Origin: a virus
DNA: 24,225 nucleotides
Direction: 5' to 3' (one strand)
IMG/VR virus record: IMGVR_UViG_3300030406_001032
Span: 1-24,225 of that record
In this document: piece after piece, positions 239 to 23,603 of the stretch
Position numbering within the stretch: the first letter of the stretch is position 1
Layout: each line of letters starts with the position of its first letter
Translations under genes and position numbers: made by a program
Notes under the pieces: model-generated
The model's database searches: none
What the model was told of the DNA's origin: nothing
What the model saw: only the letters and a program-made list of their open reading frames with translations

Positions 239-592
239 ATGCCGGTATTGAGAAAAGAAATAACCCTTGACGATGGCTCAGTCATCGAAGTCAAGCAGGT
301 TTCGGGAATGAAGAAATTACAGATAGAAAATATACAAGCCAAGGTCTTTAGGCAATTTAGACACTTTGGTAATCCTCTTGAGTGGGATGAAAAGCAACAA
401 TTTGAGTTTGCAGATGCTTTGGATGAAGCAGGTGCAGGTATTACCGCACAAGCACACGCTTGGTTGCCGGATTGCATTGTTACAGAAGGTGTAGACATAG
501 ATGACTTAAATTCTGCTGAGTTGCTACGTGTGTTACAATTCGTAAGGGGCGATGAGGAAGAGGCTCCAGAAGGTGCGCTCCCTTTGGAATGA
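239..592 (+). CDS. Tail assembly chaperone, upstream (gpG-like) frame
   Basis: This 117-residue acidic protein sits immediately before the tape measure gene, the classic place of the tail assembly chaperone, which coats the tape measure protein while the tail tube polymerises. The sequence has an N-terminal beta-rich part (MPVLRKEITLDDGSVIEVKQ) and a helical middle, and ends in an acidic run (RGDEEEAPEGALPLE). Homology to lambda gpG is not visible by eye; the call rests on gene order, size and the -1 frameshift signal at its 3' end. The last codons are CCT TTG GAA TGA, and the stop overlaps the ATG of the next gene. A frameshifted product would keep residues 1-116 and continue into the next frame for about 210 residues in total. 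Confidence 0.7.
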   Translation: MPVLRKEITLDDGSVIEVKQVSGMKKLQIENIQAKVFRQFRHFGNPLEWDEKQQFEFADALDEAGAGITAQAHAWLPDCIVTEGVDIDDLNSAELLRVLQFVRGDEEEAPEGALPLE

Positions 593-611
593 TGTGGTCT
601 ATAGCACCACA
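580..611 (+). promoter_or_regulatory. Programmed -1 ribosomal frameshift signal
   Basis: CCCTTTG at 580-586 is a canonical X XXY YYZ heptamer in the correct phase: the zero-frame codons are CCT and TTG, and after slippage they read CCC and TTT. A 6-base spacer (587-592, containing the zero-frame TGA at 590-592) leads to a perfect 6-bp hairpin, TGTGGT at 593-598 pairing with ACCACA at 606-611 around a 7-base loop. The -1 frame is then open through GGA ATG ATG TGG to the stop at 868-870. The geometry matches lambda G/GT-type signals. Confidence 0.75.
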
Positions 612-928: not shown

Positions 929-3661
929 TTGAGTAGACAGGGTGCATCCCAAGTATTCTTCGATATAGTCGGTACTTTCCAAGCCGGTAGGCTTATCCGA
1001 GATGGAGCCGCTGGCATGGCGGCTTTAGAGGCTTTGATGCTTGATACGTTAGGTGGTATAGGTAATGCTGCTGGCGAATTAAGTATGCAGATAGACCAAG
1101 TAGTAAATGCTACAGTACCATTAGCAGAAGAAATAGAAAAATCACGACTTGAGTTTCAAAAATTCGTTAGCGAGGTAAACTCAAGTGCGCTTACTGCTGA
1201 AATAGAGCAACTCGGTTTATCCTTTGGGTTTACTGCACAGCAATCACTTAAAGCAGGTTCAAGGATGGCGCAACTAAGCGCATTACTAGGAGAAGAGGTA
1301 GTCCCGGCGGCTACAGAAGCAGGTATAGCCTTTGGTCTAATAGGTGACATGGAAACCGAAGACGCTATGAACAGGCTAATTAGTCTACAGCAACAGACTA
1401 AGTTTATGTTTGAGGGTACTACGCAAGCGGCTTATAGTCAAATGTCTGCTTTAGAAAGAAGAGACTTGGCTACAAGACAAATGGCTATGACTCTAAACAG
1501 ACTAAACAGCGTAGAAGACCACTCAGCCGCAACTATGGCTCAGATTACTGCGGTTATGAACGAGTTTGCTTCTCAGGCTCATCTAACTGGAGAAAGTATG
1601 GGCTTTATGGCGGCGATGTCTGCCGTGCTTGTTGAGTCGGGAGAACAGCAAGGTAAGGCTGGAAGGTCACTAAGAATGACTTATGCTAGACTCGGTGCAG
1701 ATATTAATGGTGCCGCAGAAACCCTTGAAAATTATGGTGTAGCAGTAAAGGATTCTACAGGAAGCCTAAGACCACTTTCTGCTATATTAGCAGACTTACA
1801 ACCTATATGGGGTACGCTTAACTCCGGTATAAAACAGAACGTCGCTCAGCAAGTAGCAGGTAACAGACACTATGTACGTTTCATCAAAATTATGGAAAAC
1901 TTCGATAGAGTCAAGGCGTTAGAAATAGAGGCAAGAGAACAAACTGCCGCCGTAATGGACGAAGAGGGAAATGCGATAGGTTACTTGGATACCCTACAAC
2001 GCTCTAACATGGTTACCCTAAAAGGTCTACGAGCCGAGTTAGAGTTAGTCAATTCTGCGATAGGAGAGCGACTTATTCCCGGAGTTATTAGTGCTACACA
2101 ATTCCAAGTAGATTTCAATAGGTCTTTTGAGCAATTGCTTCATGCCGCGCCTTTGCTATCTGACGCTCTTGGTAGAATAGTCGGTATGCAACAAATGTTA
2201 AGCAACGTATTTGCTCCTTTCTTTAGTGCTTTCCTAAACATCAAAGCCATGAATCTTGCTTTGCAGACTCACATGGCGGTTATGAGAGCCGTAAATGGAG
2301 AAAGACTGACTATTGCTAAAAGCGAAATGAGTATGACAAATGCAAGAATAGTTTCTATGGCTTCTGAGCAAGCAAACGCTAAAGTTTTGCTGGGTATGAA
2401 ACACGCCGAAAGAAAGGCATTCATAGATACTATGGCTCTTAGACTGACTGAGGCAAGAATTAGGCATACTCAAAACCAACAAGAGTTACAATCTGCTATG
2501 GCTTATCAAAATGTAACTAGATTTAGTACGGCACAAGAGTTGGCTCAACTAAAAATTAAAACTGGTAAAGCAGATGTAGATGAAGCAATTTTAAAAATAC
2601 AGATTAATCTTAACAAATTACAATCGGGATATGCTTACGCTGCTAGTACAATAGTTAAGATGGAAAGAGAGATAGCCAAGGCTAAAGAAATTATTTTACT
2701 AAACTCGGTTTTGATAAATCAAGCACAACAAAAATCGGTAACAAATTTACACCGAGTACAGCAAGAAAACGCCAAGATTATCCAAAGACTTGAGGTAATG
2801 ATTCCCAAGTGGAGAACAATACTAACAGACGTAGAGAAATTTAAACAAGAACTGATGATGGCTAACGACCAAGTAGAGTTTATGAATTTCAATTTAGATG
2901 CTACGTCCATGCATATGAATGCATTGATGGCAGGTTCTATGGTTGCTGATATGGTAATTATGAGCATAGGTAAGACTGTCTTTAAATTGTTAGGTGTAAC
3001 CGATGCTGGTGTAAGGGCGGCAAGAGTTTCCATGATTGCTATGAATCTAAGCATGGTAGTAATGATAGGCTCAATTGGTGTTGCCATGTCTCAAATGGCT
3101 ACGTTTATGGCACAAAAAGTAGCAGATGAAAAAATCACAAGGGCAGACGCACAGGCCCATATGCAATTAGCAAGCGCACAACAAGCAGTAGCAACTGGCG
3201 CACTTACTGCTGGTGCTGGTCTCGCAAAATTCGCTAAACTTACATTAGGATATACCGCTATTATTATTGGTTTGTCTATAGCAATAGAAAGGGTGTTAGA
3301 TTTCTTCGGTGTGTTTGATACAGAAATAGAAGAGTTGGCTTTAGATACGGCTAATTTCCAACAAGACTTCCAAAACTTTGACTTTACTATACCCGAAGTA
3401 GACATGGGACTAGAACCAGCGATGGAGCAAATGCAAGAATTTTCAAACCGAAGAGAAGAGTTATTCTTTGGTTTTAAGGCAGGTAATGTAACAGGAGATT
3501 TGATAAAGCAAGTTACCGTCGGCGGAGTAGATAACTTTGTGGCAAACACAGAAATTATTATGAAAAATGAGTTTCACGGCATGACAACACAAGAAGCGGC
3601 GGCTGAAATAATAAGTCTGATACAAGAGGAAGGAGAGAAGCAGGGGTATTCATTTGGTTAG
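929..3661 (+). CDS. Tape measure protein
   Basis: This 910-residue protein sets tail length and occupies the tube lumen before DNA ejection. Roughly residues 210-330 look like the TP901-type core of tape measure proteins, with features such as SGEQQGKAGRSLRMTYARLG and the DSTGSLRPLSAILADL stretch. Residues about 440-650 are helical and probably coiled coil. Hydrophobic stretches follow near 664-720 and 768-794 (for example LGYTAIIIGLSIAI), usual for this family. With the commonly used 1.5 angstrom per residue rule, the tail would be near 135 nm. The start is TTG: an in-frame TGA lies at 923-925, and GGTGATG at 918-924 matches the archaeal anti-Shine-Dalgarno sequence, although only four bases away. 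Position after the chaperone supports the call. Confidence 0.88.
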   Translation: MSRQGASQVFFDIVGTFQAGRLIRDGAAGMAALEALMLDTLGGIGNAAGELSMQIDQVVNATVPLAEEIEKSRLEFQKFVSEVNSSALTAEIEQLGLSFGFTAQQSLKAGSRMAQLSALLGEEVVPAATEAGIAFGLIGDMETEDAMNRLISLQQQTKFMFEGTTQAAYSQMSALERRDLATRQMAMTLNRLNSVEDHSAATMAQITAVMNEFASQAHLTGESMGFMAAMSAVLVESGEQQGKAGRSLRMTYARLGADINGAAETLENYGVAVKDSTGSLRPLSAILADLQPIWGTLNSGIKQNVAQQVAGNRHYVRFIKIMENFDRVKALEIEAREQTAAVMDEEGNAIGYLDTLQRSNMVTLKGLRAELELVNSAIGERLIPGVISATQFQVDFNRSFEQLLHAAPLLSDALGRIVGMQQMLSNVFAPFFSAFLNIKAMNLALQTHMAVMRAVNGERLTIAKSEMSMTNARIVSMASEQANAKVLLGMKHAERKAFIDTMALRLTEARIRHTQNQQELQSAMAYQNVTRFSTAQELAQLKIKTGKADVDEAILKIQINLNKLQSGYAYAASTIVKMEREIAKAKEIILLNSVLINQAQQKSVTNLHRVQQENAKIIQRLEVMIPKWRTILTDVEKFKQELMMANDQVEFMNFNLDATSMHMNALMAGSMVADMVIMSIGKTVFKLLGVTDAGVRAARVSMIAMNLSMVVMIGSIGVAMSQMATFMAQKVADEKITRADAQAHMQLASAQQAVATGALTAGAGLAKFAKLTLGYTAIIIGLSIAIERVLDFFGVFDTEIEELALDTANFQQDFQNFDFTIPEVDMGLEPAMEQMQEFSNRREELFFGFKAGNVTGDLIKQVTVGGVDNFVANTEIIMKNEFHGMTTQEAAAEIISLIQEEGEKQGYSFG

Positions 3662-6600
3662 AACCGTAACTAACAAATACGGCGTGTGGCTTTGCGGTTA
3701 CTACGACGATTTTCTCAGCGCAAAAACTGTAGGTTATGACAATAACAACCCTAATAATACTACAGCAGGTGCATACGCCCATCTTTCTACACACTACGGC
3801 AACCCACTTAATGGGGAGGCTACACTCAACCCGAGATATAGATGGGCGATGCCTGAGAGAGCGCAATCAAGTGGTGCAGTTTACAAATTTGCCCCAGCAT
3901 CTTTGCAATATTATCACAACAAAGGAATGTTTGAGTGGCTAACTCACGATTCTATAAGAAATTATTCTGACAATTGGCAAGGTAGAGCGCAGTTGCAATT
4001 CCCCGATAGCCACACAAACGCTCAACAGTATAAATTAGATGCAAGTGGTAGCGATGCATTTCACATATTTACAAACGGACACAACACATCTGATAGATAC
4101 GTTGTACCATTAGGAGACATTGACTCTTCCTTCGGTAGAGAAACTATGCGTGGTCTTGGCTATATGACCGACTACGCCGCTAAAACAGGTGGGGTTAGTA
4201 ATTGGGTGGCTGATAGTGGAGGTAATTCTGGGACTGACAACGATATAGCCATAGTTAGGAGAGCGCATTTGACTGGTAGATGGATGGGTGAAAGACTAAA
4301 ACAAGATTCAGGTGATACTACATACCCATTAGATATTTTTGCTCCACTAGAGTCTCCGTCAGGCCAACCGTTTTTGACCATACAGACATGGCATAAAGCG
4401 GGAAGTAGTAGTTTACCTAGTAGCCCTACCATCTACTACCAAGGGTCGCTTAATTCGCGTGGGACTGGCGATTTTTTACATTTCAGAATAGCAACAAGAG
4501 CATTTAATGGTGCTGGCGCAGTAACACCCACAATAAACATCAAGGCTGGCTTTCCAAGTACTGGTATAGGCGCAACATACGAAGGGGGCTTGCAAGGAAC
4601 ACCCGCCATTTCCTTTAACTTAGATTTGTCGTCTTACTCTACGCTCCCTTTATTATACGATGGAAATAATAGTAAATTGTCATATACTAATAATAATTCT
4701 TGGATTGATGTAGATGTATGGATTGATTATGACAATAACAAATACCAAGTTTATCAAGATGGTGTGGCTGTGGGTAGCCTTACATCTTTTGCTATATCAA
4801 GGGCGGCAAAAGATATGTATGGGTGGGCTATACATAGCGTGTCACCAAACGGTACAGCCGACTCAAACGTATCTATTATGTTAGACCGAGCGTCCTTGTA
4901 TAGACCACTCACAGATAGTATAAAGGATAACGATTTCCCAGGAATATACACGTTTGATTTTAGTAGTGGTGTGAATGCTACGTCTACTATGAAAATATCT
5001 GTAAGAGATAAACCACTTGAAACTAATTCAAAGGGCTTTTCTGCGTCGGATTACAAACATCAACTTACAGAAATATTTAAGTCTGAGATTTTAAATGATT
5101 GGTGGATGATATTATTTACAGGCGCAGGTGAAACAGGACAAGAAGATATTGCAAACATAGATAGACCGACATGGCGTGGGCTAATAGATAGTATTTCAGT
5201 AAAGGAAAACAATCAAGATAGAACAATTAGTATATCAGCCCAAGATACGTTTTCCCTTCTTACCAAACAAGTCTTGCTTTGGGAAGTAGGTCAAGGCAAG
5301 GTAAATGACTCCGAAGGTAGTAGTGCTTATTGGGCCTTTGAAGCAGAAGGCATGAAAGATATTATGTATCTCGGTGCAAGCAAATTAAAGCAATTTGCAG
5401 GTAACATAGGATTTGAGTCCGGTAATTCGTATAAACCAAGAGATGACCAGAGAACACAACTGTATTCCGGTCATCCTATACAGATGTATAACAACGAAGA
5501 AACATATGGGCCTAACTCATTAGAAGACGATTACGAAGGTATGGGTATAGACTACATTATTCACGATGGCACTAATCAATACATTTACCTTACTGGTAAC
5601 CCAGGATATTCGTCAAGCGATAGTATTACTATAAGGGATACCGATAACGCCGCTTATGACGAAAAAACTGTAACAATACAAAGTGTCTCTACCGTAGACG
5701 GACAACAAAGACTGACTATTACAGATGGTAGTGGCTCAGGTGAAATGCAATTTACAGATAAAAAAGCGGCAGATATTGTATATGCAGGTAAATACATAGG
5801 AGAATCCATAGGAGCAGATAATCCTGAGTATAGTTTCGATAATGGTTTTGCTACTAACGATATAGAAGCAATAAGTAATTGGCTAAGGTATTTCAATTTG
5901 GTTTTGTCACACCCCAAAGGATTTTTCTTAGATAGCGTAAGTGTTATAAATCCCGGTAATGGTTATAACAAACAGTTTAATTATTATACTCTAATAGACG
6001 GCGAAAATTTACATCAAGGAGATTTGACTATTTCTGGGGGGTCACCGGATGATACAGCCTTGGCTACGTGGTTTAGCGATGGTGAAGAAATAACACACGT
6101 AGAAGTTAGAGAGCCTGGTAGAGGATACGGTAGCGTACCTACCGCTTCGCATTCTGGTATTACAGGAACAGGTACTGAACTAAGGGGTGGCATAGTAACA
6201 TTTACAGTTAAGGCTACTGGTAGCAATTCTCTTGCTAGTATAGGTAGCGATGTATTAAGTAATGCTGGAAGTATAATACAAGAGCAAAGTGCTTTCAACG
6301 TAGATGGTAATAGAAATGCACCGAAATCTGCTATATTTGAGGTCGCTTCTCCAGATGGAACATTGTCTGCAAGTGATATAACATTACAATATGCTGGGTC
6401 AGGCTATGACCCTTCTGGTAGTGGTACTGCGGTAAACACAAACATTTTGATAGATAGAGTAGGTGGTAGTACATACACTTTAGACATTACTGTAAATACT
6501 ATTTTTGCTGATGCAACATTTGTATGTAACTTAGAGGGCGAACCCACTACTGATTTTTACACATTCCTAATGAAAACAGACCCCGAGTTGTTACCAGGCG

Positions 6601-9600
6601 AAGAATTTGTTATTGCAGGTAAAGCGATAACAGGACATACTGCTAACGAATTAGATAAGATAGAAGGAAAACATACTGTAAAATCTGTAAAGAAAATTTT
6701 TAATTATCACGATGGTTCTTACACCGTAGGCACACAAAGATATTGGTGGCAAGTACAAACCTATACGCCATATACATCATCAAGTGCTGAGTTTGGTGAT
6801 TGGCCTACTAACAATGGGTTACTTGCAAATAGAATAGGGTGGTCTAAAGTTACTGGTGGTACGGTTACCCCTAAACCTACTAGCCAAACTGAAGATATTA
6901 GTAATAGAGCAGTACACGCTAAATGGATGCGCGACTTACCTAAATCGTTGTGGTTCCAGTATCACTTTGGTAAAATTCAATATGATTCAAATCCAATTTC
7001 TACCGACTTAACACTTAACGGTGCAATTTCCCTTAGCGATACTGAAATACAAATAGACTCTACTACTTACGGCGCTATACCAAATCATGGGTTAGTAGAA
7101 ATAGAAAGAGTAAAGTCTGCCGCTAGATATGATTTAGTAACAGAAATAAGAGATATATTCATCTATCAATGCAAATATCAAATCGGTAGCAATTACTACA
7201 TTGGTGGTATTAAGTTTATTAGCGCAGACCATCCTACCTCGGCAGAAACATGGATTTCTACAACCGAAACTGGTAGCATAAATACAACCTTAAACTTCCT
7301 AACAATATCATCTAATTACAAACACTTGTGGGTGTTGTGGGCTGACATGAGAAATGACGGTAATGCAGATGCCGATGGCCTTCGTAGAAAAACATCCTTT
7401 GGTCTACAGTATCCTTCACATAAAAATTACGATGTAAAGTTGTTATTTGAAGACCAATTCAACGACCAAGGTGAATATGAAACTTATGCCGAACTAAAGC
7501 AAGGGGAAGACGTAGATGTATGGGAAATAGATGCTACTAATGACCCCTCAACTGCTGGTGCTTTTTCACACCCAATAGATTACGCTAACGCAAAAGCATT
7601 TGCTTGGACTGACGTAAGTAATAGTGGTGGCACGGTAAATATAAATCATACAAATCACGGTTTAACTACAAATGATAAGGTTGCTTTATTTAATATAAAT
7701 GAGTCAAGTTGGGACGGTGTGTATAATGTAGTTGCAACTGCCGACGCGAACAACTTCCGAACATCCTTAACATACCCAGGAATACCAAGTGTAGTCACAA
7801 ACTCAAATCAGAATGACGATAGATTCTTCTTCGCTAAAATTACAGGTTCCTATGACGATATTTCTACATATCAAGACTGGCAAAACAAAGCAGGTGCTTT
7901 TGTCATAGTAGACGCATCAAAATTCTTTAACATGAATACGTTGGCTAATGACGGCTCGTTTACAAAAACTTCTGGTGGTAAAACAGACTTAGGTGATTAC
8001 TATGCCGTAAGAGAAGCAGACCCAGTACTAATTGACACGTATTGGAAACAAGCCGCATCTACTGAAATGACTACTGGCGATACTTATAGAAAGCATGAAA
8101 ATATGGACAGACTAACTACGCAAGTTACAGACTTAGCAGATGTAAAGGAAGGTCAATTTTATCTTGTTCCTACTGATTTAACTTTGTTTAATGAAAATGG
8201 GATAGGAAGAATTATTGCCCATAAAGATGAAGACGAATTAAAAAGCGAGTTTTATTACACTTGGAATGGGAAAGTCTCAACTAAAATTTCAGGTAGTTTT
8301 GAAACAGTTTCGGTATCAACCTTTGATACACACTTTGTTTGTACCGATAACCAAGGGTCATTTACATCGGACTTAGAAGGTGCATATATCAAAAACACAA
8401 CTAAGCCATTAGTTGCAGGTGTAGGTGATTCTTGGAAAACTAACTTTATACAAGAATATTGGTACAGAATAAAAACTGTAGTTTCGTCTACCGTCTTGCA
8501 TATAGAAAGAGTATCTTACTTACCTATTAACCCATTTGGTTCTGGTGGCTTATTTACTTCTCAACCCGGAGAAAATTACAATAATTACGAAAATGGCTTA
8601 AACCCTAACGTACTAAGAGCCGTAGATATAGCAGATGGGTGGGCTAATACCCACAACTATCAAATTGTACCACAAATATACAACGTAAACTTAGAGTCTG
8701 CTACTAAAGTTACCACAGACACTACATACTCACAAAAAGTTATTGAAGAAGAATTTGCTATAAAACAATCTGAGTATGGTAGAAGAACGGAACCACATTG
8801 TAGAGTCGGCATTCTCAATGCAAACTACACAGCAGTTAAAATTTACAACACCGTAGCCGCTGAATATGCCTTTAGGCTAATGATGCATCTCGGTGGCTAC
8901 GTTAGAAACGAAAACATAGGAACCTTTGCCTTCCACGACAAATTTAGAATGCTATGGAATTTGTCTATATTAGATTCGTGGTGGACTACCACAAGATTAC
9001 CAACTACATTCGGTCTAAATACAGTACCAGTAACAGATAAAATGACTACATATAACGACATTTCTACACACGATAGATACGGTAGCGTTTACAAGGCAGA
9101 TAATAAGAAACTGAGTGAAATTATTAGGGGGGTACAAGAAACTGCTGGTACTGGCTCTCTAAATAGTTATGTCAGCACGTTTTCGTACATGATAGGAAGA
9201 GACAATAAGATGGAATTTAGACCTAAATTTAACGCAGGTTACGAATTTACAAGAAATAACATAAATCTAACTGCTATGGAAATAAAAAATAACGGGGTAA
9301 TTAGCAACGTAAGAGTACAATACAATGACGGCAACAGTTTTGTTGATTACCCAGCAACATCATTAGGGGATATTACCAAGTGGAAAATTGTGCAAGCACC
9401 ACTGGTATTATCTGACAAAGAAGCCGAGGCTATAGCAAGGCGAGAATACGAAAAACACAAAGGTAATGATATAAGAATAAAAATGCAACCAATTAGAGAT
9501 ACAGGTCAAGGGGATGTAATGTTAGATGGTGGCAGATTTGGCTACATACAAGATGCACAGATAGCCTACCAAGGAAATGCAGACCAAAGTACCGAAACTG

Positions 9601-11387
9601 GTTGGTGTTGGACTAAATTAGGTACAGGTGGCGTATTATTCCCAGGTATGGTAAACGCTCTCGACGGTAATTTAGGCGGTGCAGTAACTAGTACTACAAA
9701 AAATACTCGGTATGGTACATCAAAAATAGATGCAACTGCTAATACCGACCGAAATGTATCTGCAAATGACAATTATTACTGGTATGGGTCTAACTCATTG
9801 GCTCATGCAGTACAAATTGTCAATGTAAGCAAAAACGCAAACAAAACCAGTAGCACAACAGGAGAAAAACTAAGAGTTGTCCTTGCCCTAAAACCAAATC
9901 AAACAATTGTCGATATAGGAAACGCACAGTTTAACTTATATTTGTTAGATTGTAGTTTCTCAACTACTGCTTCTAGTGGCTACGCACCACACCTAAAGGG
10001 TATTATCAAGAGTCATAGTGTAAAAACACTAAAACATAGTGGGTTCTACGAAATATCGCTACCTTCTACTTATGGTACTGGTACTATTGTAATATCCTTT
10101 AATGCCGAGTATTGTAGAGACCTTATGAGAAGCAGATGTGGCGACCCATCACAAACTACACATGGTTCTGCAAATTATATTTTCGACAATTGTGTAGCAG
10201 ATATTGTAAGTCATACCGGTGGCTCAAGTATTGAATTAGATACTGGTAATGCAGTAAATGACGCCAGTATATTTCCACTTGGATACAGACCTTATACCGA
10301 ACTAATATCTGGTTCTATGAGTACAGACGGAAGGCTACTATGGTATGCACCATCTATTACAATCGTTGATGACTTAATGTATGTACCGGGGTCAATAGTA
10401 ACTTATACTGACGCAGGTATGGATTTCAATGCCGAAAATTTAGTAATACAAGACATAAAATGGTCTGCAAATACCACGCAAGGAGAAAAAGTACAACTTA
10501 CCGTAGAAAGAGATGAATCGCGCTCAATGGATGGCTTATTGCCTTACATATTAGCAGACCCCGGTAATATGCCTGTACCATTACCGCCTACTGTAAATAC
10601 AACTGTGCCACCAACTACATCAGACACAGGTAATATTACTAGCGAAGACCAGTTACCCAGCGGAGGCAACAACCCTGGAACTGGCACAGTAGGTTCATTT
10701 ACAACAGAATCAGCACAATCAATCGACAACTTCGGTAGAGGTCTATCGCGCACCATAAAAGGTGCTATGGCATTGGGGGATAGCGATTTATCTGCACAAT
10801 CCGGTTTCCATATATTAGGGCAACCAAAAACATCTACTACACCGAGTAATATGCGTGGTATGACAGGCCCAATGCGAATGCCTGTTGTAGAGGGCGCGGC
10901 TATTTCCAACGAAACTTCGTTTGAATTACCAGGTATAGGCAAAGAAAAGCAAGGGCAAGGAGAAGCGCCAAGCCCAGCAAGAGATGCTACTCATGCTGTA
11001 GAAATAGAAATAAACACACCAGAAGATGCTACTACAAATGAAATAAATATAACAGGAGTACCCTTAATGAATGTAGGTCGTGATGGTGGTAGTACAGGTG
11101 TATTGCATATATCGGTTCGGTGTGTGCAAACTGGTGCGTCTGCATCACAATCAATAAGCATTAGCCCTGCTATGAATCAAAATAACGTAGAAATGCTACC
11201 GACAAGCATTATAGACGGTGTAACTACGCCAGGTAATAACTTAATAATTAGAGTAAGTAGAACGCCAGGACAAGGTAATGATACTGCTTTGTATAGTAGC
11301 GTATCTGTATCTAATTTTAGAGTAAACTTTAGACGCGCAGGTGTATCAACTGCGTCATCACAAAACTCGTTTATTCCATACCGATAG
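3654..11387 (+). CDS. Giant tail hub / adhesin protein (2577 aa)
   Basis: This is the largest gene in the window and directly follows the tape measure gene with an 8-base overlap, so it probably forms the tail tip that joins tube, baseplate and receptor binding. Visible parts: residues about 235-420 resemble a LamG/concanavalin-like jelly roll (NNSWIDVDVWIDYDNNKYQV, then a GWAIHSVS strand); 430-590 look like the first part of a gp44/gp27-type hub; GxGY repeats lie at 768, 822 and 915; an FCCH-like tail domain lies near 1315-1380; 1820-1970 and 2230-2300 look like the rest of the hub; a Pro/Thr-rich linker covers about 2303-2345; a beta-rich C-terminal domain follows. No separate distal tail gene is seen. 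The start is TTG, with AAGGAGAG 16 bases upstream, so the exact start is uncertain. Domain calls are by eye. Confidence 0.8.
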   Translation: MVRTVTNKYGVWLCGYYDDFLSAKTVGYDNNNPNNTTAGAYAHLSTHYGNPLNGEATLNPRYRWAMPERAQSSGAVYKFAPASLQYYHNKGMFEWLTHDSIRNYSDNWQGRAQLQFPDSHTNAQQYKLDASGSDAFHIFTNGHNTSDRYVVPLGDIDSSFGRETMRGLGYMTDYAAKTGGVSNWVADSGGNSGTDNDIAIVRRAHLTGRWMGERLKQDSGDTTYPLDIFAPLESPSGQPFLTIQTWHKAGSSSLPSSPTIYYQGSLNSRGTGDFLHFRIATRAFNGAGAVTPTINIKAGFPSTGIGATYEGGLQGTPAISFNLDLSSYSTLPLLYDGNNSKLSYTNNNSWIDVDVWIDYDNNKYQVYQDGVAVGSLTSFAISRAAKDMYGWAIHSVSPNGTADSNVSIMLDRASLYRPLTDSIKDNDFPGIYTFDFSSGVNATSTMKISVRDKPLETNSKGFSASDYKHQLTEIFKSEILNDWWMILFTGAGETGQEDIANIDRPTWRGLIDSISVKENNQDRTISISAQDTFSLLTKQVLLWEVGQGKVNDSEGSSAYWAFEAEGMKDIMYLGASKLKQFAGNIGFESGNSYKPRDDQRTQLYSGHPIQMYNNEETYGPNSLEDDYEGMGIDYIIHDGTNQYIYLTGNPGYSSSDSITIRDTDNAAYDEKTVTIQSVSTVDGQQRLTITDGSGSGEMQFTDKKAADIVYAGKYIGESIGADNPEYSFDNGFATNDIEAISNWLRYFNLVLSHPKGFFLDSVSVINPGNGYNKQFNYYTLIDGENLHQGDLTISGGSPDDTALATWFSDGEEITHVEVREPGRGYGSVPTASHSGITGTGTELRGGIVTFTVKATGSNSLASIGSDVLSNAGSIIQEQSAFNVDGNRNAPKSAIFEVASPDGTLSASDITLQYAGSGYDPSGSGTAVNTNILIDRVGGSTYTLDITVNTIFADATFVCNLEGEPTTDFYTFLMKTDPELLPGEEFVIAGKAITGHTANELDKIEGKHTVKSVKKIFNYHDGSYTVGTQRYWWQVQTYTPYTSSSAEFGDWPTNNGLLANRIGWSKVTGGTVTPKPTSQTEDISNRAVHAKWMRDLPKSLWFQYHFGKIQYDSNPISTDLTLNGAISLSDTEIQIDSTTYGAIPNHGLVEIERVKSAARYDLVTEIRDIFIYQCKYQIGSNYYIGGIKFISADHPTSAETWISTTETGSINTTLNFLTISSNYKHLWVLWADMRNDGNADADGLRRKTSFGLQYPSHKNYDVKLLFEDQFNDQGEYETYAELKQGEDVDVWEIDATNDPSTAGAFSHPIDYANAKAFAWTDVSNSGGTVNINHTNHGLTTNDKVALFNINESSWDGVYNVVATADANNFRTSLTYPGIPSVVTNSNQNDDRFFFAKITGSYDDISTYQDWQNKAGAFVIVDASKFFNMNTLANDGSFTKTSGGKTDLGDYYAVREADPVLIDTYWKQAASTEMTTGDTYRKHENMDRLTTQVTDLADVKEGQFYLVPTDLTLFNENGIGRIIAHKDEDELKSEFYYTWNGKVSTKISGSFETVSVSTFDTHFVCTDNQGSFTSDLEGAYIKNTTKPLVAGVGDSWKTNFIQEYWYRIKTVVSSTVLHIERVSYLPINPFGSGGLFTSQPGENYNNYENGLNPNVLRAVDIADGWANTHNYQIVPQIYNVNLESATKVTTDTTYSQKVIEEEFAIKQSEYGRRTEPHCRVGILNANYTAVKIYNTVAAEYAFRLMMHLGGYVRNENIGTFAFHDKFRMLWNLSILDSWWTTTRLPTTFGLNTVPVTDKMTTYNDISTHDRYGSVYKADNKKLSEIIRGVQETAGTGSLNSYVSTFSYMIGRDNKMEFRPKFNAGYEFTRNNINLTAMEIKNNGVISNVRVQYNDGNSFVDYPATSLGDITKWKIVQAPLVLSDKEAEAIARREYEKHKGNDIRIKMQPIRDTGQGDVMLDGGRFGYIQDAQIAYQGNADQSTETGWCWTKLGTGGVLFPGMVNALDGNLGGAVTSTTKNTRYGTSKIDATANTDRNVSANDNYYWYGSNSLAHAVQIVNVSKNANKTSSTTGEKLRVVLALKPNQTIVDIGNAQFNLYLLDCSFSTTASSGYAPHLKGIIKSHSVKTLKHSGFYEISLPSTYGTGTIVISFNAEYCRDLMRSRCGDPSQTTHGSANYIFDNCVADIVSHTGGSSIELDTGNAVNDASIFPLGYRPYTELISGSMSTDGRLLWYAPSITIVDDLMYVPGSIVTYTDAGMDFNAENLVIQDIKWSANTTQGEKVQLTVERDESRSMDGLLPYILADPGNMPVPLPPTVNTTVPPTTSDTGNITSEDQLPSGGNNPGTGTVGSFTTESAQSIDNFGRGLSRTIKGAMALGDSDLSAQSGFHILGQPKTSTTPSNMRGMTGPMRMPVVEGAAISNETSFELPGIGKEKQGQGEAPSPARDATHAVEIEINTPEDATTNEINITGVPLMNVGRDGGSTGVLHISVRCVQTGASASQSISISPAMNQNNVEMLPTSIIDGVTTPGNNLIIRVSRTPGQGNDTALYSSVSVSNFRVNFRRAGVSTASSQNSFIPYR

Positions 11388-12057
11388 GATTACGCAATTC
11401 TAATATTCGTCGTGCCTTTTCACGGCCAATACCATCAACTTGCATAAGATTTTTTTGTGTTTGTCTACTATGCAGTATTTTTGGTATGCTACCAAATTCT
11501 TGTAACAGCGCATCTGCTTCTTTACGTGATACACCAGCAATACTTGCTAATACAGTTATGCGAGAATCTAACTTTTGATAGGGAATTTTAGGAAAACTCT
11601 CTTTGGCTTTTCCTACAATATTTAACTGCGTATGATTTATGATTAACCAGTTGATAAACTCAGTCATATTAGCCAGTTCCATGTATTTTATCTGCGGAAA
11701 CCGATTATAGAATGTGGCTTTAAAATTCTCTATAGTTTTTACCATTCTGGTTTTTTCTATTGCCAGTCTTTGTGCATCCGGTCTACCTTGGACAAAGGGC
11801 TTTAGGATAGAGCCATAGACAACCAGCATAGGATTGTCGAAATTTCTTTGTAAATCTGTAAGTTGGCCCACGATTGTCCTACTTCTACCTATCCCCATGA
11901 TAGACCGGTATAAGTCGTTTATTTCCTTGGCTTCGATACCGACATCTTGGATAACATAGTCTGCACTCTCAAGACGACGTACAGTACAATCGTCGCCCAT
12001 GCGACTCTGAATCTTATTTATGAGAATTTCATTCTCTCTATCATCTATTACCAGCAC
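11371..12057 (-). CDS. XPF/ERCC4-family nuclease with helix-hairpin-helix domain
   Basis: This 228-residue protein has the two-part build of archaeal XPF nucleases without the helicase. The N-terminal ERCC4 nuclease domain has IDDRE at residues 4-8 (family VDxRE), ADY at 32-34 (family GDY) and EAKEIND at 42-48 in place of the usual ERKxxxD. The C-terminal helix-hairpin-helix pair lies at about 165-225, with IAGVSRKEADALL and VDGIGREKARRIL. Such enzymes cut flaps, forks or branched DNA, often as dimers tied to the clamp. The Arg in ERK is replaced by Ala-43, while the metal-binding acids and the Lys are kept. The start is GTG at 12057, directly before the first catalytic motif, preceded by a TATA-like box at a leaderless distance. 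The 3' end overlaps the convergent tail gene by 17 bases. Confidence 0.85.
   Translation of the reverse strand: MLVIDDRENEILINKIQSRMGDDCTVRRLESADYVIQDVGIEAKEINDLYRSIMGIGRSRTIVGQLTDLQRNFDNPMLVVYGSILKPFVQGRPDAQRLAIEKTRMVKTIENFKATFYNRFPQIKYMELANMTEFINWLIINHTQLNIVGKAKESFPKIPYQKLDSRITVLASIAGVSRKEADALLQEFGSIPKILHSRQTQKNLMQVDGIGREKARRILELRNPIGME
11450..11456 (+). terminator. Possible T-tract terminator of the tail operon
   Basis: A run of seven T lies about 63 bases after the stop codon of the giant tail gene. Archaeal RNA polymerase can stop at T tracts without a hairpin. The tract is inside the oppositely oriented ERCC4 nuclease gene, where it encodes Gln-Lys-Asn, so it may be chance. Confidence 0.25.
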
Positions 12058-12068
12058 TATTTAGTGCT
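12053..12068. repeat. Perfect inverted repeat over the nuclease start codon
   Basis: AGCACTA and TAGTGCT form a 7-bp perfect inverted repeat with a TT centre. It covers the GTG start of the ERCC4 nuclease gene and lies where a leaderless transcript would begin, so it could be an operator for a dimeric repressor or a small mRNA hairpin. Confidence 0.5.
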
Positions 12069-12094
12069 ACTAATAAACTGGTTAATAAAGGGTT
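12058..12094 (-). promoter_or_regulatory. Promoter of the ERCC4 nuclease gene
   Basis: The 37-base gap between methyltransferase and nuclease genes holds two TATA-like boxes on the minus strand: TTTATTAAC at 12089-12081, centred about 28 bases before the GTG, and TTTATTAG at 12077-12070. The first is at the distance expected for a leaderless archaeal transcript starting at the GTG. Confidence 0.5.
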
Positions 12095-12637
12095 TTAGAA
12101 TTGTAGTGAGTAGGGTTGTTGGACACCTTGCCATTCAGAGTTACTATTCTCTCTACTTTCAATGATGCCGATGGTACAATGTTGTGAGCCGCCGTGTGCG
12201 AAGACGCACAATTTATCCAATTCGTAGCCTCTCATTTTCCCCATGAACGTCGAATGGTAGCCAAATGATATGATGCTCCCATTTGGTGCTAAGATTCTAC
12301 CGACTGAATCTGCTAACATCTTGAACCGGCTTGTGTAGTTTCCGTTATACATCTCCATAGCCTTGCGTAGAGCGTAAGGTGGGTCAAGGATAATTGTGTC
12401 AAATTTGTGTCCCTCCCATTGTTGTACGAAATCCACGCAATCCATTCGATAATCAGCAACAGCGTTCTGCTCGTCAATGTCATTCCTTGTCTCATCCAAA
12501 TCCAACAAGGTCTTACCTGCGAACAGGTTCAAGACTTTACCCGAACTATTTTCTTCTACCCATCTCTTAATTTTGGGTGACTCAAAAGTATATCTCCGCA
12601 GGTTAGTCTGTATTATCTCTAATTGTGGAATCTTCAT
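12095..12637 (-). CDS. DNA methyltransferase, DPPY type (probable N6-adenine)
   Basis: This 180-residue Rossmann methyltransferase has motif I as LNLFAGKT at residues 36-43 (S-adenosylmethionine binding) and catalytic motif IV as DPPY at 85-88. DPPY is typical of amino-methyltransferases acting on adenine N6 or cytosine N4. It is short and lacks an obvious separate target recognition domain, and no restriction endonuclease lies next to it, so it is probably an orphan enzyme that protects viral DNA or marks it for regulation. An RNA or protein target cannot be excluded from sequence alone. It starts at ATG 12637, exactly after a conserved promoter cassette shared with polB, so it is likely transcribed on its own without a leader. 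Confidence 0.78.
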   Translation of the reverse strand: MKIPQLEIIQTNLRRYTFESPKIKRWVEENSSGKVLNLFAGKTLLDLDETRNDIDEQNAVADYRMDCVDFVQQWEGHKFDTIILDPPYALRKAMEMYNGNYTSRFKMLADSVGRILAPNGSIISFGYHSTFMGKMRGYELDKLCVFAHGGSQHCTIGIIESRENSNSEWQGVQQPYSLQF

Positions 12638-12674
12638 AGATTATCCTATAATCAATCGCTTATGAATGTGACTA
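12638..12674 (-). promoter_or_regulatory. Conserved leaderless promoter cassette, methyltransferase gene
   Basis: Reading on the minus strand, the TAG stop of the upstream zinc-ribbon gene is followed by 34 bases and the methyltransferase ATG. With the ATG included (12635-12674), 35 of 40 bases match 17560-17599 in front of polB. A TATA-like ATTCATAAG is centred about 27 bases before the ATG. The GATTATAGG stretch between box and start is also conserved and may be a further element. Confidence 0.65.
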
Positions 12675-12809
12675 TATTATACACTCGCCGTCGCCACAAC
12701 AAGAGATAACTTTCATCTTACAGTTTAAACAAGTAGAAGAACCGTGTACTTCTACAAATCCTTTGTCGCTAAAACACATTGGGCATCTCATTTTCTTTTG
12801 CATTGTCAT
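12672..12809 (-). CDS. Small zinc-ribbon protein (45 aa)
   Basis: This 45-residue protein (begins MTMQKKMRC) has two Cys knuckles, CPMC at residues 9-12 and CLNC at 27-30, typical of a zinc ribbon, followed by a further Cys cluster CCGDGEC near the C-terminus. The gene has a strong GGAGG at 12817-12821, seven bases before the ATG, and begins two bases after the stop of the small membrane protein gene, so it is coupled to it. Its TAG stop forms the first bases of the promoter cassette of the next gene. The partner or nucleic acid it binds is unknown; such tiny ribbons commonly bind nucleic acid or a protein surface. Confidence 0.75.
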   Translation of the reverse strand: MTMQKKMRCPMCFSDKGFVEVHGSSTCLNCKMKVISCCGDGECII

Positions 12810-12811
12810 TT

Positions 12812-13000
12812 TCAGTCCTCCATCGACAAAAACATCGCGCTATCTATAAACCCGTAGTCTTCGTGGTTGGAATTAGAGTTGTAAGTCTCATGTCGTATAA
12901 TAGTTGTCGTTTTTATTCTTATTGGTAGTGTAATATACCAGAATATCCAGCCCACAAAGAGTATCTCAATTACCAGCACAAAACCAACAACCCTCTCCAC
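12812..13000 (-). CDS. Small single-pass membrane protein
   Basis: The 62-residue product has one strongly hydrophobic segment at about residues 4-26 (VVGFVLVIEILFVGWIFWYI) and a polar tail ending SMFLSMED-like. It would sit in the host membrane with a short N-terminus. I recognise no family; roles such as lysis, membrane anchoring of replication or superinfection exclusion are only possibilities. Its 3' end, two bases from the next gene and carrying that gene's GGAGG, argues that it is a real gene in the polB operon. The start is weak: GTG at 13000 overlaps the primase gene by 35 bases, no ATG is available upstream of the hydrophobic segment, and a shorter form from an internal GTG is possible. 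Confidence 0.55.
   Translation of the reverse strand: MERVVGFVLVIEILFVGWIFWYITLPIRIKTTTIIRHETYNSNSNHEDYGFIDSAMFLSMED
12817..12821 (-). promoter_or_regulatory. Ribosome binding site GGAGG for the 45-aa zinc ribbon
   Basis: GGAGG lies seven bases before ATG 12809 and inside the last codons of the upstream membrane protein gene. It supports both the reality of the tiny gene and coupled translation. Confidence 0.6.
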
Positions 13001-14000
13001 TACAATACCCTTTACTCTTATACCACTTAGGAGAAGGGGAATTGTTGTAGGTGTTGATGATGTACCTCACGTTTTGTTTGGTTGTCGCTTCCCTATAATC
13101 TCTCCAGTTCAAGGTAGCGATGTAACCACATATTTGATTCTCAATGTCTTTCATTTGTTCTCGGCTCAAGGTCTTCTTATCTGCAAACCATCTTAGGTTT
13201 TGTGACAAAAATTGAGCCAATGCTACCCTTATCTCATGTCGTGGGTTCTCCTTGTGTATAGCCCTCTCAAGGCAATTAGGTAATGGTATGTCGAGAGCAG
13301 AACCTATAGTGATAGCCGAGGAATCAATAGTACCTACATCTACAGTATCTTCGGGATTATCTATTAGCCATTGAGTGATGTCAAATGTGGATTGATTAGG
13401 CATTCCCATGAAGGGGTCATACTTCTTTAGTGTGCGGTCAGGTCTCTTGGGGATAGAGTAATTCATAGGGTCAGCCCTAAATGCTTCGGGGTCTATGGTC
13501 ACGGCCCATCTACCTCGCTTCGGATTGAACGTATCAGGTATTCTCGTCAGTTTAGATGCGTGACCTACACCATCCAAAGTGTCTAACCCTTTCGACATTT
13601 GGCGTTGGTATCTCTCTAAGTCTCTACTACCCTTTACGCCTTTGATTGGTTTGCTAAACAGTTGATGAACGTGAAAGCCTCTACCAGTAGCGACTATACG
13701 CACATCGCCACTCAACTTGAGACATAGCAAAGCAACATCTTGCTTGACCTTATCTATGCCATGAGTCTCGGTAGTATCGAAGTCCCACCAAGCCCTATCA
13801 ATAACAACGGAATCTACATCGAGTTGTTTATACTCGATGCCGAAACCGTCCCACCCACTATCTTCAAACCTTTCGTAAGAGTATAGGCTGGTGTAGCAAG
13901 CACTTCTGCCGTTGAATGTCTTGACATACTTCTTGTATGAGTCTAAAGACCACACAGTATGACGGCGAAGCCCTATGGTGCGTGGGAACGAAAGAAGCAT
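12966..14000 (-). CDS. Archaeo-eukaryotic primase, PriS-PriL-type fusion
   Basis: This protein carries both halves of an archaeal primase on one chain. Numbered from ATG 14000, the catalytic PriS-like part shows DFD at 73-75 (metal-binding motif), GRGFHVH at 106-112 (the SxH-type motif) and TRIPDTFNPKRG followed by WAVTID with Asp-170. The C-terminal part, from about 240, resembles the iron-sulfur domain of PriL: PLPNCLERAIHKENPRHEIR, then a helical region, then YCSGEGCWFC. Cysteines at 243, 291, 333, 338 and 341 are candidates for the four cluster ligands. It would make primers for the PolB of the same operon. ATG 14000 follows the stop of the preceding zinc-ribbon gene by four bases; a GTG at 14027 would add nine residues and overlap that gene. 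Confidence 0.85.
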   Translation of the reverse strand: MLLSFPRTIGLRRHTVWSLDSYKKYVKTFNGRSACYTSLYSYERFEDSGWDGFGIEYKQLDVDSVVIDRAWWDFDTTETHGIDKVKQDVALLCLKLSGDVRIVATGRGFHVHQLFSKPIKGVKGSRDLERYQRQMSKGLDTLDGVGHASKLTRIPDTFNPKRGRWAVTIDPEAFRADPMNYSIPKRPDRTLKKYDPFMGMPNQSTFDITQWLIDNPEDTVDVGTIDSSAITIGSALDIPLPNCLERAIHKENPRHEIRVALAQFLSQNLRWFADKKTLSREQMKDIENQICGYIATLNWRDYREATTKQNVRYIINTYNNSPSPKWYKSKGYCSGEGCWFCAGN

Positions 14001-14004
14001 ACTA

Positions 14005-14157
14005 TCAACACTCTTGTTTGTGACCACAATCGCAAATCATTACATCTACGACTTCAGGTACATTCCCTTCCTGTCCTGTAACCCTTATAATTTTGTCGCT
14101 ATCTACCCAATCAGAGTCACTACCACAAGCGGCACATACTAAGATAGGTTTACTCAT
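14005..14157 (-). CDS. Small Cys-rich zinc-binding protein (50 aa)
   Basis: This 50-residue protein (begins MSKPILVCAACGSD, ends ICDCGHKQEC) has Cys pairs CAAC at 8-11 and CDC at 42-44 with His-46 and Cys-50, a probable zinc ribbon or rubredoxin-like knuckle. It starts at ATG 14157, overlapping the end of the Cas4-like gene, and GGTGATT a few bases upstream matches the archaeal anti-Shine-Dalgarno sequence. It ends just before the primase start. The tight position between nuclease and primase suggests a DNA-replication accessory role, but no specific function can be assigned. Confidence 0.72.
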   Translation of the reverse strand: MSKPILVCAACGSDSDWVDSDKIIRVTGQEGNVPEVVDVMICDCGHKQEC

Positions 14158-15037
14158 TCCAATCACCTTCTAACCCCAACTCGGCGGCATGAATCTCTTG
14201 TTGGCATGACGCATTGAAGTCGCACCATGTCATACAAAAGTAGTCATTCCACTTCATGTCCCACTTGTGGGAGAATAGATTAGGAAGAGTGTCATTTAAT
14301 CGTTTGTAAAAGGCATTAATAGACCGTGAACCAACTGGCTCAAGTATGGCTATACCGTTGTGGTCTCCTAACCACAAAGTCTTACCCTTCTTGCTACCCT
14401 CAAGTAGTAACTTATCTTCTCGGTCTACCACAAGTTGGTAGTCGGGACAAATATAGAGGAAATGTGTGATTGATTCGTAGATATTCATCTTATCTAATAT
14501 CATCTTGTAGAAGCACAACTCTCTACGTGTGCGTTGCAATTTACCTACTCCCATGTTACCAGTCTTGAGTTCGGTAAGAATTAAGCCGCCGTCAGGATGA
14601 CGCAACACAGCATCTATCATACCCACCCAAATAATCTCGACTTGACCTATACCATCAATATGCTTCTTCTCAAACACTTGATGTTTCTTCTCTACCTCTA
14701 CAATGTCAAAGCCACCTAAATCCCAGGCTATTTGATGAAGCAAAGAAGTCATAGATTCTATAGCCGGGTCAAGAACGTCTAACCCCTCGTCTACTACGGC
14801 TTGAGGTACTGCATCGGCACCATCTAATAGACCTACCTCCATGACTTTGTGTACTTGACCGCCCCTAACCATAGCCTCGGTAGGTGGTGGTCTCGGGACA
14901 TCGGCTATGTTATTCCACCAGTATTGTCGAGGACACATCAAGTAACCCATGTAGGAGGACTTACTTATCTTCGTGATGCCATCTTTGTTAGGCGTGTAAG
15001 AGGATAAGCCTATTTGCTCGGCAGTAGCAAGTTTCAT
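14150..15037 (-). CDS. Cas4/RecB-like PD-(D/E)XK nuclease with iron-sulfur cysteines
   Basis: This 295-residue protein shows the motif order of Cas4-like exonucleases: an N-terminal Cys in SSYMGYLMCPRQYWW (near residue 35), the His motif RGGQVHKVME (near 60), the metal site GMIDAVLRHPDGG followed by ILTELKTGN (Asp and Glu-x-Lys, near 138-158), a Tyr motif RELCFYKMIL, and three C-terminal Cys in YFCMTWCDFNASC. One N-terminal and three C-terminal cysteines are the usual ligands of the 4Fe-4S cluster in Cas4 and AddB. No cas1, cas2 or CRISPR repeat is near, so it is a viral replication or recombination end-processing nuclease rather than part of CRISPR adaptation. The ATG overlaps the preceding gene's stop as ATGA. 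Confidence 0.88.
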   Translation of the reverse strand: MKLATAEQIGLSSYTPNKDGITKISKSSYMGYLMCPRQYWWNNIADVPRPPPTEAMVRGGQVHKVMEVGLLDGADAVPQAVVDEGLDVLDPAIESMTSLLHQIAWDLGGFDIVEVEKKHQVFEKKHIDGIGQVEIIWVGMIDAVLRHPDGGLILTELKTGNMGVGKLQRTRRELCFYKMILDKMNIYESITHFLYICPDYQLVVDREDKLLLEGSKKGKTLWLGDHNGIAILEPVGSRSINAFYKRLNDTLPNLFSHKWDMKWNDYFCMTWCDFNASCQQEIHAAELGLEGDWNE

Positions 15038-15324
15038 TCTTCTTCATCCCCTATGTCATCAGGCGCATCAGTCCAACCACACAAGTTACAAACCTTGTGA
15101 TTCTCCTCCACACTATCAAACATAGGGATGAGTATTGGTGCTTTGCAAGAAGGACATTCTTCTTCTTCTACCTTTCCTAAATCTTTGAGAAGGTGAAACA
15201 AAAGGAAATTGACTTTCTCCATATCTTGTGTCATAGCACCGGCCAAGCCACCGACATCATGCTTCAATCTAATGTAAGCATCCATGAGCGTTTGTAGACT
15301 TATGGTCTCCTCGCCGTCACTCAT
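15034..15324 (-). CDS. Zinc-ribbon protein with helical N-terminus
   Basis: Started at ATG 15324 the product has 96 residues. The first 50 are helical (for example QTLMDAYIRLKHDVGGLAG), followed by an acidic turn and a four-Cys ribbon: CPSC at 57-60 and CNLC at 79-82, then an acidic tail. I do not recognise a family. The start is chosen because GAGGAG lies five bases before this ATG; a GTG at 15330 would add two residues. The gene begins nine bases after the polB stop and overlaps the Cas4-like start by four bases, so it is translated with the replication genes and may adapt one of them. Confidence 0.78.
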   Translation of the reverse strand: MSDGEETISLQTLMDAYIRLKHDVGGLAGAMTQDMEKVNFLLFHLLKDLGKVEEEECPSCKAPILIPMFDSVEENHKVCNLCGWTDAPDDIGDEEE

Positions 15325-15329
15325 AGCCA

Positions 15330-15335
15330 CTCCTC
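15330..15335 (-). promoter_or_regulatory. Ribosome binding site GAGGAG choosing ATG 15324
   Basis: GAGGAG overlaps the polB stop codon and is five bases before ATG 15324, but overlaps the alternative GTG 15330, so the ATG is the better start. Confidence 0.5.
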
Positions 15336-17562
15336 ACACCCAGCGCATATTAACTTGTTGGATACTATTCCATAGTGGTTGCATATCCCAGCCCACCAAA
15401 TCGTAATACGGCTCTACCTTCTTCAGTACGAACCTCTCCAACAATTCTTTGTATCCTATCTTAGCCAACCCCTTTATTTCCTTTGGGTCATCGAAGGCTA
15501 TGTACTTACCATTTTCATCTAATGTAGTCAAGAAATAGGAATCCTTGCGATATGTCTTACCAATGTTTGCGTTGGCCCACGCCGCCCCAGCACTTGGGCC
15601 GGATAGAGTCTTGTACTTGGATAGGTCTCTCGACAATCTACCCTTCATGCATAGGTTGATGTCTTCCTCTTTACCCTCAAGAACCCTGTCAATCAAGTCC
15701 TTGATATAGTTAGTAGTCTCGATTTCGTTTTTGTGAGTCAATACACTATTCAAGGTAGCAGACATTACTTCTTTCATAATAGGTGGCATTCTTGATTGCT
15801 TCAGTTCAATACCCTTGACATAAAGAACATCACCATGACTAACACCCTCAGTCCATGTTACGTTGCCAGCATAGCGATTCTTAGCCATCAACACCATGCT
15901 ACTACACCACTTCTCAAACTCTACTTCAATAGGAGCCAGTTCTTCGTTAATTAAGCGCATCTTTGCCTCTCCCTCTTGAGGGGTAGGTATGATGCAAAAC
16001 ACGCTGTCTGTGTGTCCGTAAAGTACCTTAAAGCCGTGCTTTTCAGCACACACCTTCAAGTCATTTAGAGTAGCCCGTGAAGTGTAGGTAATCGCCGCCG
16101 CGATTTTAGGGTGATACATACCATACTTTGAATCGCCAGCCACACCGTACATAGACGCTACTAAAGATTTACAGGCAAATTGCATAGTATCCCACTTATC
16201 TAAGCCGTCTTTCTTTTTCAGTCTCTTGTAGTGGTTTCTCAAATCGGTCATCTTATCCATCAATCGAACAAGCAAGCCTTTCTTACCCTTGTAAAATACT
16301 GTACCATTACCACAGTCTTCATAACGCCATTCGTCTATCGGATTCTCCTCTAACGTATCCCATGAGATATTATGCAAAGATGCATTACTATGATACATCG
16401 CTTTGACATCGAGAATGCCTACATTATCATATGCGCCTTCCTCGACCTCCATAATCTCAGCACCTTCGTATGGCTCAAATGCGAATTGTGGTCTTGTGGG
16501 AATACGTCTATCGAATTCCTCGTCTTGCAAAGTCAAACAAGTAAACATCTTGGTTATGAAAGGAGTGCTTTTCAGTTCACATTGTACGATATGTTGTAGA
16601 GATAAGTAGTGCTTTATTGCATTGACCTTCTCATCCAAGAGTGGTAGTAACGCTACGTCTTGAATACAGTAATGAATGTATGTGGCGATGTCGCTATAGT
16701 ATGTATCGTGACCGTCTTCCAGTTCTACTTTAGTTTGTCCCAGTACTTCACGCGCAACATCGTCAAGTTTGTATCCCGGTAGTTTGCCGTTCTTCAACTC
16801 CCACAATTTAGAAAAGGCAATCATCAAGTCTATGCAATTCCTCCCTGCTATTGGTTGCGCCCAATCACCGAATTCGTATCGTATTCGATTTAGTGGGGAA
16901 AGCCTCTGAGGTTGCAAACCGTTGGCTCTACATCGCTCTATGATGGTCTTGATGTCTGCACCCACCACGAACCAACCAGTAATCACATCGGGGTCTTGAG
17001 CCGTCATATGTGAAAGGAAATGACGAAGCATATCCTTCTCGGTAGAGAAAGCCTTGATGTGGGTATCGAAAGTGTGACCGTCTAATTCCTTGTGGTCGCC
17101 AGGCTCTATGTCTGCATGAACAACCCACACATAGTCTTGTTGTGTGAAACTATCCTTGACTACTATCACCCTCATTTGATTTGTCGTAGGATGCCACTCA
17201 CAGTCTAAGTACCATACTCGATGCTCGTAGTTAGGGATATTGTAGGCGTTGTCACAAAGTATTCTATTGGTGGTGGGAATGTTGGCCTCCCACGTATCGT
17301 ATTCTTTCCTTACGCTTTTCATAAAGTCATAGTCTGGAGAGGTAATCTTAGTCAGTTCCTCTCCGTACAAACCTATGAAACCATCAATTGTGGTATATGG
17401 GAATACATCTATACCACTCTTGAATTTATCTTGTAGAGAGTCGGCTTCCTCGGTCTTTATGAATAGATAAGGAATTATCTCATCGGTTATAGTCTTACGA
17501 TAACCCTTTTCATCTCTATATCTAATAGACACTCTATTTCTTACAAGCGCGTCTACTATCAT
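15334..17562 (-). CDS. polB: Family B DNA polymerase
   Basis: This is the viral replicative polymerase with 3'-5' proofreading. Numbered from ATG 17562 (742 residues), Exo I is YLDCEWH with D120 and E122, Exo II has Asp-203 in GWFVVGADIK, and Exo III is YCIQD with Y298 and D302. Polymerase motif A is DVKAMYHS from D385 (family DxxSLYPS), motif B is K465 to SMYG at 470-473 with Ala for the usual Asn, and motif C is YGHTDS at 515-520 where the family has YGDTDS; the catalytic second Asp (519) is kept. KG at 583-584 marks the palm-thumb region. ATG 17562 is chosen over an upstream TTG (17580) because a conserved promoter cassette ends exactly there. It probably heads the operon polB, zinc ribbon, Cas4-like, zinc ribbon, primase, membrane protein, zinc ribbon. 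Confidence 0.95.
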   Translation of the reverse strand: MIVDALVRNRVSIRYRDEKGYRKTITDEIIPYLFIKTEEADSLQDKFKSGIDVFPYTTIDGFIGLYGEELTKITSPDYDFMKSVRKEYDTWEANIPTTNRILCDNAYNIPNYEHRVWYLDCEWHPTTNQMRVIVVKDSFTQQDYVWVVHADIEPGDHKELDGHTFDTHIKAFSTEKDMLRHFLSHMTAQDPDVITGWFVVGADIKTIIERCRANGLQPQRLSPLNRIRYEFGDWAQPIAGRNCIDLMIAFSKLWELKNGKLPGYKLDDVAREVLGQTKVELEDGHDTYYSDIATYIHYCIQDVALLPLLDEKVNAIKHYLSLQHIVQCELKSTPFITKMFTCLTLQDEEFDRRIPTRPQFAFEPYEGAEIMEVEEGAYDNVGILDVKAMYHSNASLHNISWDTLEENPIDEWRYEDCGNGTVFYKGKKGLLVRLMDKMTDLRNHYKRLKKKDGLDKWDTMQFACKSLVASMYGVAGDSKYGMYHPKIAAAITYTSRATLNDLKVCAEKHGFKVLYGHTDSVFCIIPTPQEGEAKMRLINEELAPIEVEFEKWCSSMVLMAKNRYAGNVTWTEGVSHGDVLYVKGIELKQSRMPPIMKEVMSATLNSVLTHKNEIETTNYIKDLIDRVLEGKEEDINLCMKGRLSRDLSKYKTLSGPSAGAAWANANIGKTYRKDSYFLTTLDENGKYIAFDDPKEIKGLAKIGYKELLERFVLKKVEPYYDLVGWDMQPLWNSIQQVNMRWV

Positions 17563-17599
17563 AGATGACCCTATAATCAATTGCTTATCAATGTAACTA
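17563..17599 (-). promoter_or_regulatory. Conserved leaderless promoter cassette, polB
   Basis: On the minus strand this runs from the TAG stop of the upstream helix-turn-helix gene to the polB ATG. With the ATG included (17560-17599), 35 of 40 bases are identical to the cassette before the methyltransferase gene, with identical length. A TATA-like ATTGATAAG is centred about 27 bases before the ATG. Confidence 0.65.
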
Positions 17600-18255: not shown

Positions 18256-18262
18256 AACCAAA

Positions 18263-18268: not shown

Positions 18269-18270
18269 AC

Positions 18271-23581: not shown

Positions 23582-23603
23582 GATATGACCGAGATTAGAG
23601 GGC

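Follow-up and report, generated by a model that had tools for sequence, protein, structure and literature searches.

The window analysed here, a stretch of 24,225 nucleotides, comprises positions 1 to 24,225 of the IMG/VR record IMGVR_UViG_3300030406_001032. Near its start, two short ORFs (G and T) lie on the plus strand directly upstream of a tape measure gene. The first (239–592) encodes a putative gpG-like tail assembly chaperone of 117 amino acids as the zero-frame product and, in the frame of its ATG at 239, closes with the codons CTC, CCT, TTG, GAA, and TGA. The initial annotation had read a −1 frameshift signal here, and its core was confirmed: the slippery heptamer C CCT TTG (580–586) stands in exact X XXY YYZ phase, and the zero-frame stop TGA (590–592) is the second codon after it. 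The −1 frame ORF (556–870) is free of stops between TGA at 553–555 and TAA at 868–870, and within it an ATG (589–591) overlaps the zero-frame stop as ATGA; this possible re-initiation start is not conserved among relatives. A −1 slip at the heptamer would join residues 1–116 of G to the T extension (586–870, 94 codons plus stop, beginning Gly-Met-Met), giving a fusion of 210 residues, the size previously proposed. The tape measure gene (929–3661, plus strand, 910 aa) was recognized by PHROG tape-measure families (E = 6 × 10−16) and by the Pfam profile PhageMin_Tail (E = 6 × 10−15). Just upstream of the chaperone gene lies a further short ORF of about 60 aa (18–197 in the window; also at 3135–3323 in relative L005), for which the window copy had no Pfam or PHROG match. 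Downstream, a single ORF of 2577 residues (3654–11387), whose TTG start codon overlaps the stop of the tape measure gene, had no PHROG match of note; it probably encodes a giant protein of the tail or its fibres.

The structural genes are on the plus strand and the large ORFs past 11.37 kb (11371–24225) on the minus strand, which makes two modules that converge at about 11.38 kb; the capsid genes are not within the window. The minus-strand ORFs include a family B polymerase, the small subunit of replication factor C (RFC-S), an XPF/Hef-type nuclease, and an AAA_24 ATPase. The RFC-S of the window is closest to archaeal RFC structures. Since an RFC-S homologue was present in all twelve of the 12 long contigs of relatives, these share the replication module too. 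Among 13 records, a search for TFIIB gave no match and MCM gave weak matches only, in four records. With a family B polymerase, RFC-S, and a Hef/XPF-type nuclease, all of archaeal type, it is plausible that the virus infects an archaeon, and we regard this marine tailed virus as probably archaeal.

Relatives were collected from IMG/VR with an alignment of the G proteins of the window and of relatives L002 and L005 as query. In total, 80 loci were recovered. Removal of near-duplicates (at least 92% DNA identity in G) left 52 non-redundant relatives; because related sequences are not independent, counts over these 52 overstate the number of events, and kinship was addressed by parsimony counts on a FastTree tree built without the slippery-site region. 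A tape measure homologue directly follows T in 49 of the 49 loci where the contig continues, and the order G, T, tape measure was found at all testable loci. The same G-T arrangement with its site recurs in nearly all 80 loci, which come from many metagenomes. One record, IMGVR_UViG_3300030451_001777, encodes G, T, and tape measure proteins 100% identical to those of the window and represents this virus, or one very similar to it, from a different assembly. A tblastn search of a phage collection with the fusion gave no match, and a scan of bacterial and archaeal genome contigs with the tape measure protein and with G found no relative.

At the homologous site, 43 of the 52 relatives carry CCCTTT(G/A/T), divided into 32 CCCTTTG, seven CCCTTTT, and four CCCTTTA, and all of these have C as the first base of the heptamer. 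In three others, T TTT TTG stands one codon further on, and six have degenerate sites (GCCTTTT in three, ACCTTTT in two, and ACATTTT in one). The expectation voiced with the initial annotation, that relatives keep both the heptamer and the −1 overlap, thus held: a canonical heptamer was present in 46/52, and the −1 frame was open in 52/52, with a T extension homologous from the first residues past the slip and nine invariant columns among 45 sequences. The proline codon (alignment column 116) is CCT in 48/48 sequences, with no parsimony change at its third base compared with 6–24 at other four-fold columns, whereas other conserved proline columns of G use several codons freely. The leucine codon after it is always TTG or TTA, and its first base likewise shows no change, compared with 3–14 at other leucine columns. 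This synonymous freezing at both slippery codons indicates selection for slipperiness beyond the protein sequence. By contrast, the zero-frame stop may be TAA, TAG, or TGA and lies 0–5 codons past the heptamer; as stop and overlap vary while the slippery codons are frozen, selection acts on these codons rather than on the stop or the length of the overlap. Elsewhere in the G genes, in-phase XXXYYYZ strings occupy 0.47% of codon positions (27/5708), and conservation of the site over the 52 relatives is far beyond chance.

All six degenerate sites have TTT as their second codon. Since a slip to U UUU would still re-pair perfectly there, these sites suggest a relaxed need for pairing in the P site. 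In a clade of this TTT type, drift has replaced the initial C of the heptamer by G or A (L054, L058, L060, L063, L066, L067, L069, L074, and L078; the site of L066 is ACATTTT), and many of these loci have TAATG or TGATG at the stop, where re-initiation might partly take over. In another sublineage, represented by L071 (4336–4362), L072, L080, and L081, CCCTTTN is replaced by the T TTT TTG located one codon downstream, with a perfect hairpin (8 bp, 3-nt loop) 5 nt past it, a case of frameshift-signal turnover within one gene family.

Sequence profiles from Pfam, PHROGs, NCBIfam, and the PDB gave no credible family match over threshold for either G or T. The model of G (pLDDT 90.7) predicts a beta-hairpin and helices, and that of the T extension is helical (pLDDT 77). 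In a Foldseek search of the PDB, the first match of the G model was the HK97 tail assembly chaperone 2ob9, a weak one (E = 0.12); VIA-align also placed 2ob9 at the top (Z = 4.8, rmsd 4.2 over 81 residues), tied with unrelated entries. Against viral models, the best match was an unnamed homologue of 115 residues and the second a mycobacteriophage tail assembly chaperone (E = 0.005), with several more such chaperones below. The T model had no meaningful match in the PDB. These structural matches are weak and suggest, without proving, a tail assembly chaperone; the assignment is based on gene position and the frameshift.

Downstream stimulatory structures are frequent, although not universal, in frameshifts of the G/GT type. 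In the window, a perfect Watson-Crick stem of 6 bp (TGTGGT at 593–598 with ACCACA at 606–611, plus strand, 7-nt loop) follows the heptamer after a spacer of 6 nt. The initial annotation had included this hairpin in its textbook signal. The stem and its spacing are there as described, but they are missing from L010, a relative (same locus as L002) with 85% identity in G, which makes the hairpin private to a lineage and its role doubtful. Its P-value was 0.011 under mononucleotide shuffling and 0.070 under shuffling that preserves the protein (7% of these shuffles contain a stem of this kind), and folding of 587–640 gave z = −0.84; taken by itself, the hairpin is not beyond chance. Nor were the hairpin pairs kept among relatives, as a comparable perfect stem occurs in only 5/52, mostly as a different stem. 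Over all 52 relatives, the 36 nt past the heptamer had a mean folding z of −0.6, with 13% at P < 0.05 (protein-preserving shuffles), and did not stand out from some control segments located deeper in T (z of −0.26, 0.14, and −0.52; 2–23% at P < 0.05). Neither folding compared with protein-preserving shuffles nor the alignment of one subclade revealed a common stem. Strong but different stems do stand at similar spacing in some lineages: L071 and L072 have GTGAGGGT-TGC-ACCCTCAC five bases past T TTT TTG (a perfect stem of 8 bp with a 3-nt loop, shared by L080), and further stems occur in L070, L077, L084, and L088, those of L077 and L084/L088 being long; the stems of these lineages have no common consensus. 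Downstream structure is therefore at most a lineage-specific helper, and it is unlikely that the window hairpin is an essential, conserved stimulator; the frameshift account does not need it. A Shine-Dalgarno-like stimulator upstream of the heptamer is weakly suggested by the motif GAGGG about 6 nt before it in many relatives (mean z −0.57); the window lacks GAGGG and has GAAGG (z = −0.17).

We interpret the locus as a programmed −1 frameshift of the lambda G/GT type in a sequence-divergent chaperone family, with a probability of about 0.93. The earlier reading of a −1 site in a G/GT-type chaperone is supported, and the gene lies upstream of the tape measure gene. Most ribosomes would read ORF 239–592 to its TGA and produce the short chaperone G. 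At C CCU UUG, a minority would shift one base back: in the P site, tRNA-Pro would re-pair from CCU to CCC, and in the A site, tRNA-Leu from UUG to UUU. These ribosomes would then go on in the −1 frame and yield the 210-residue G-T fusion. By analogy with lambda, G may coat the tape measure protein, the product of the neighbouring gene, and its T extension may recruit the major tail protein; in systems of this type, G and G-T are produced in a fixed ratio and bind the tape measure protein and the tail tube protein. What the sequences show is the site with its phase, the conservation of both the site and the −1 ORF, and the gene order; slippage itself, its efficiency, the roles of the proteins, and the involvement of an archaeal ribosome are what we infer. 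The heptamer of the window ends in G, which is not the preferred last base in the reviewed rule (PMC8211752).

An alternative for the production of T is termination at TGA 590–592 followed by restart at the overlapping ATG 589, with T as a separate protein. The ATGA overlap of the window would suit such coupling, and 15/52 relatives have an ATG close to the stop, such as the TAATG or TGATG of the TTT-type clade. However, in 26/52 relatives the −1 frame offers no ATG, GTG, or TTG ahead of the conserved beginning of T (in 37/52, no ATG), and T is nevertheless conserved from the slip onward, which rules out re-initiation as a general mechanism. It also does not predict frozen synonymous sites in the heptamer next to stops of varying position. 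As a general explanation it is thus highly improbable, and in the window it may add to T production. Even less can be said for slippage of RNA polymerase as the source of the fusion: in one subclade the site contains six consecutive T (AATTTTTTGAG), but the general site CCCTTTG contains no homopolymer longer than three, and selection falls on codon phase, which leaves this reading with a very slight chance. A last alternative is coincidence, two adjacent genes with a chance heptamer, or a sequencing error. In a single sequence, one in-phase heptamer in the 12-codon overlap is expected with a probability of about 5%; the recurrence of the arrangement across metagenomes refutes this reading, and its probability is practically nil.

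More than 50 diverged sequences under selection on slippery codons, in a lineage that is probably one of archaeal viruses, amount to a large collection of natural variants with which to study the requirements for slippage on archaeal ribosomes. We see an even chance that a marine, probably archaeal virus clade keeps a −1 site on CCUUUN working on the archaeal ribosome without a conserved downstream structure, while the site itself is subject to turnover: CCCTTTG alternates with CCCTTTT, the first base may then be lost, or T TTT TTG takes over one codon on with its own 8-bp hairpin. An unannotated protein pair is at the same time linked to tail assembly, and both proteins can be annotated as one frameshifted gene.

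The reference system is phage lambda, whose G/GT tail assembly chaperones were reportedly treated by Xu, Hendrix and Duda in 2004. Lambda shares with the window its gene order (major tail region, then G, T, and tape measure) and, close to where G ends, an X XXY YYZ site for a −1 slip that gives a G-T fusion; the lambda mechanism has been reviewed (PMC5009743). The window differs in its heptamer CCCTTTG, in a shorter T of about 94 residues, in belonging to a family without detectable sequence similarity to known tail assembly chaperone families, and in an apparently archaeal-type virus.

In part of its gene content, the window resembles the Magrovirales. The profile of the Aoguangviridae describes marine tailed viruses with a family B polymerase, RFC-S, and an annotated tail assembly chaperone (PMC10768690). 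The window likewise has two oppositely transcribed gene clusters, and of the archaeal-type replisome genes it carries PolB and RFC-S; it is a possible member of this order. A GroEL is reported for the Aoguangviridae, and Cpn60/TCP1-family chaperonins in two long relatives (L052 contig, 61300–62799; L049 contig, 33472–34932) are in line with this. The profile annotates the chaperone without mentioning frameshifting (PMC10768690), and in our search of openly accessible papers, magroviruses and frameshifts met only in a reference to cobalt chelatase. Within the same scope, the CCCTTTG chaperone family seems to be new, as do the comparative data on it.

Among archaea, one −1 case, fucA1 of Saccharolobus solfataricus, has been counted as reported and studied, in addition to predictions in a few haloviruses (PMC8211752). 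It differs from the window in being a cellular enzyme with an A-rich site that is not conserved across homologues. The earlier statement that examples from archaeal viruses are few was fair but incomplete, as predictions have been published for HVTV-1, HCTV-1/2/5, and Hardycor1 (−1) and for HSTV-2 (+1). A −1 G-T frameshift was considered very likely in four haloarchaeal viruses, and a +1 shift in HSTV-2 (PMC5009743; repeated in PMC8211752). In HVTV-1 (Druskaviridae, haloarchaeal; KC117377), HVTV1_129/130 is annotated as a joined (frameshifted) chaperone immediately preceding the tape measure gene, and G GGA AAG is visible near the junction; its heptamer differs from that of the window, the gene is larger and GC-rich, and the window fusion had no tblastn match to HVTV-1, which was present in the phage collection. 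In the haloarchaeal siphovirus Hardycor1, G GGA AAT ends the first chaperone gene (HrrHc1_110/115; PMC7911831), an X XXY YYZ site as in the window with a different heptamer and host group. The kind of system described here is thus already known, with haloarchaeal precedents in HVTV-1, HCTV-1/2/5, and Hardycor1.
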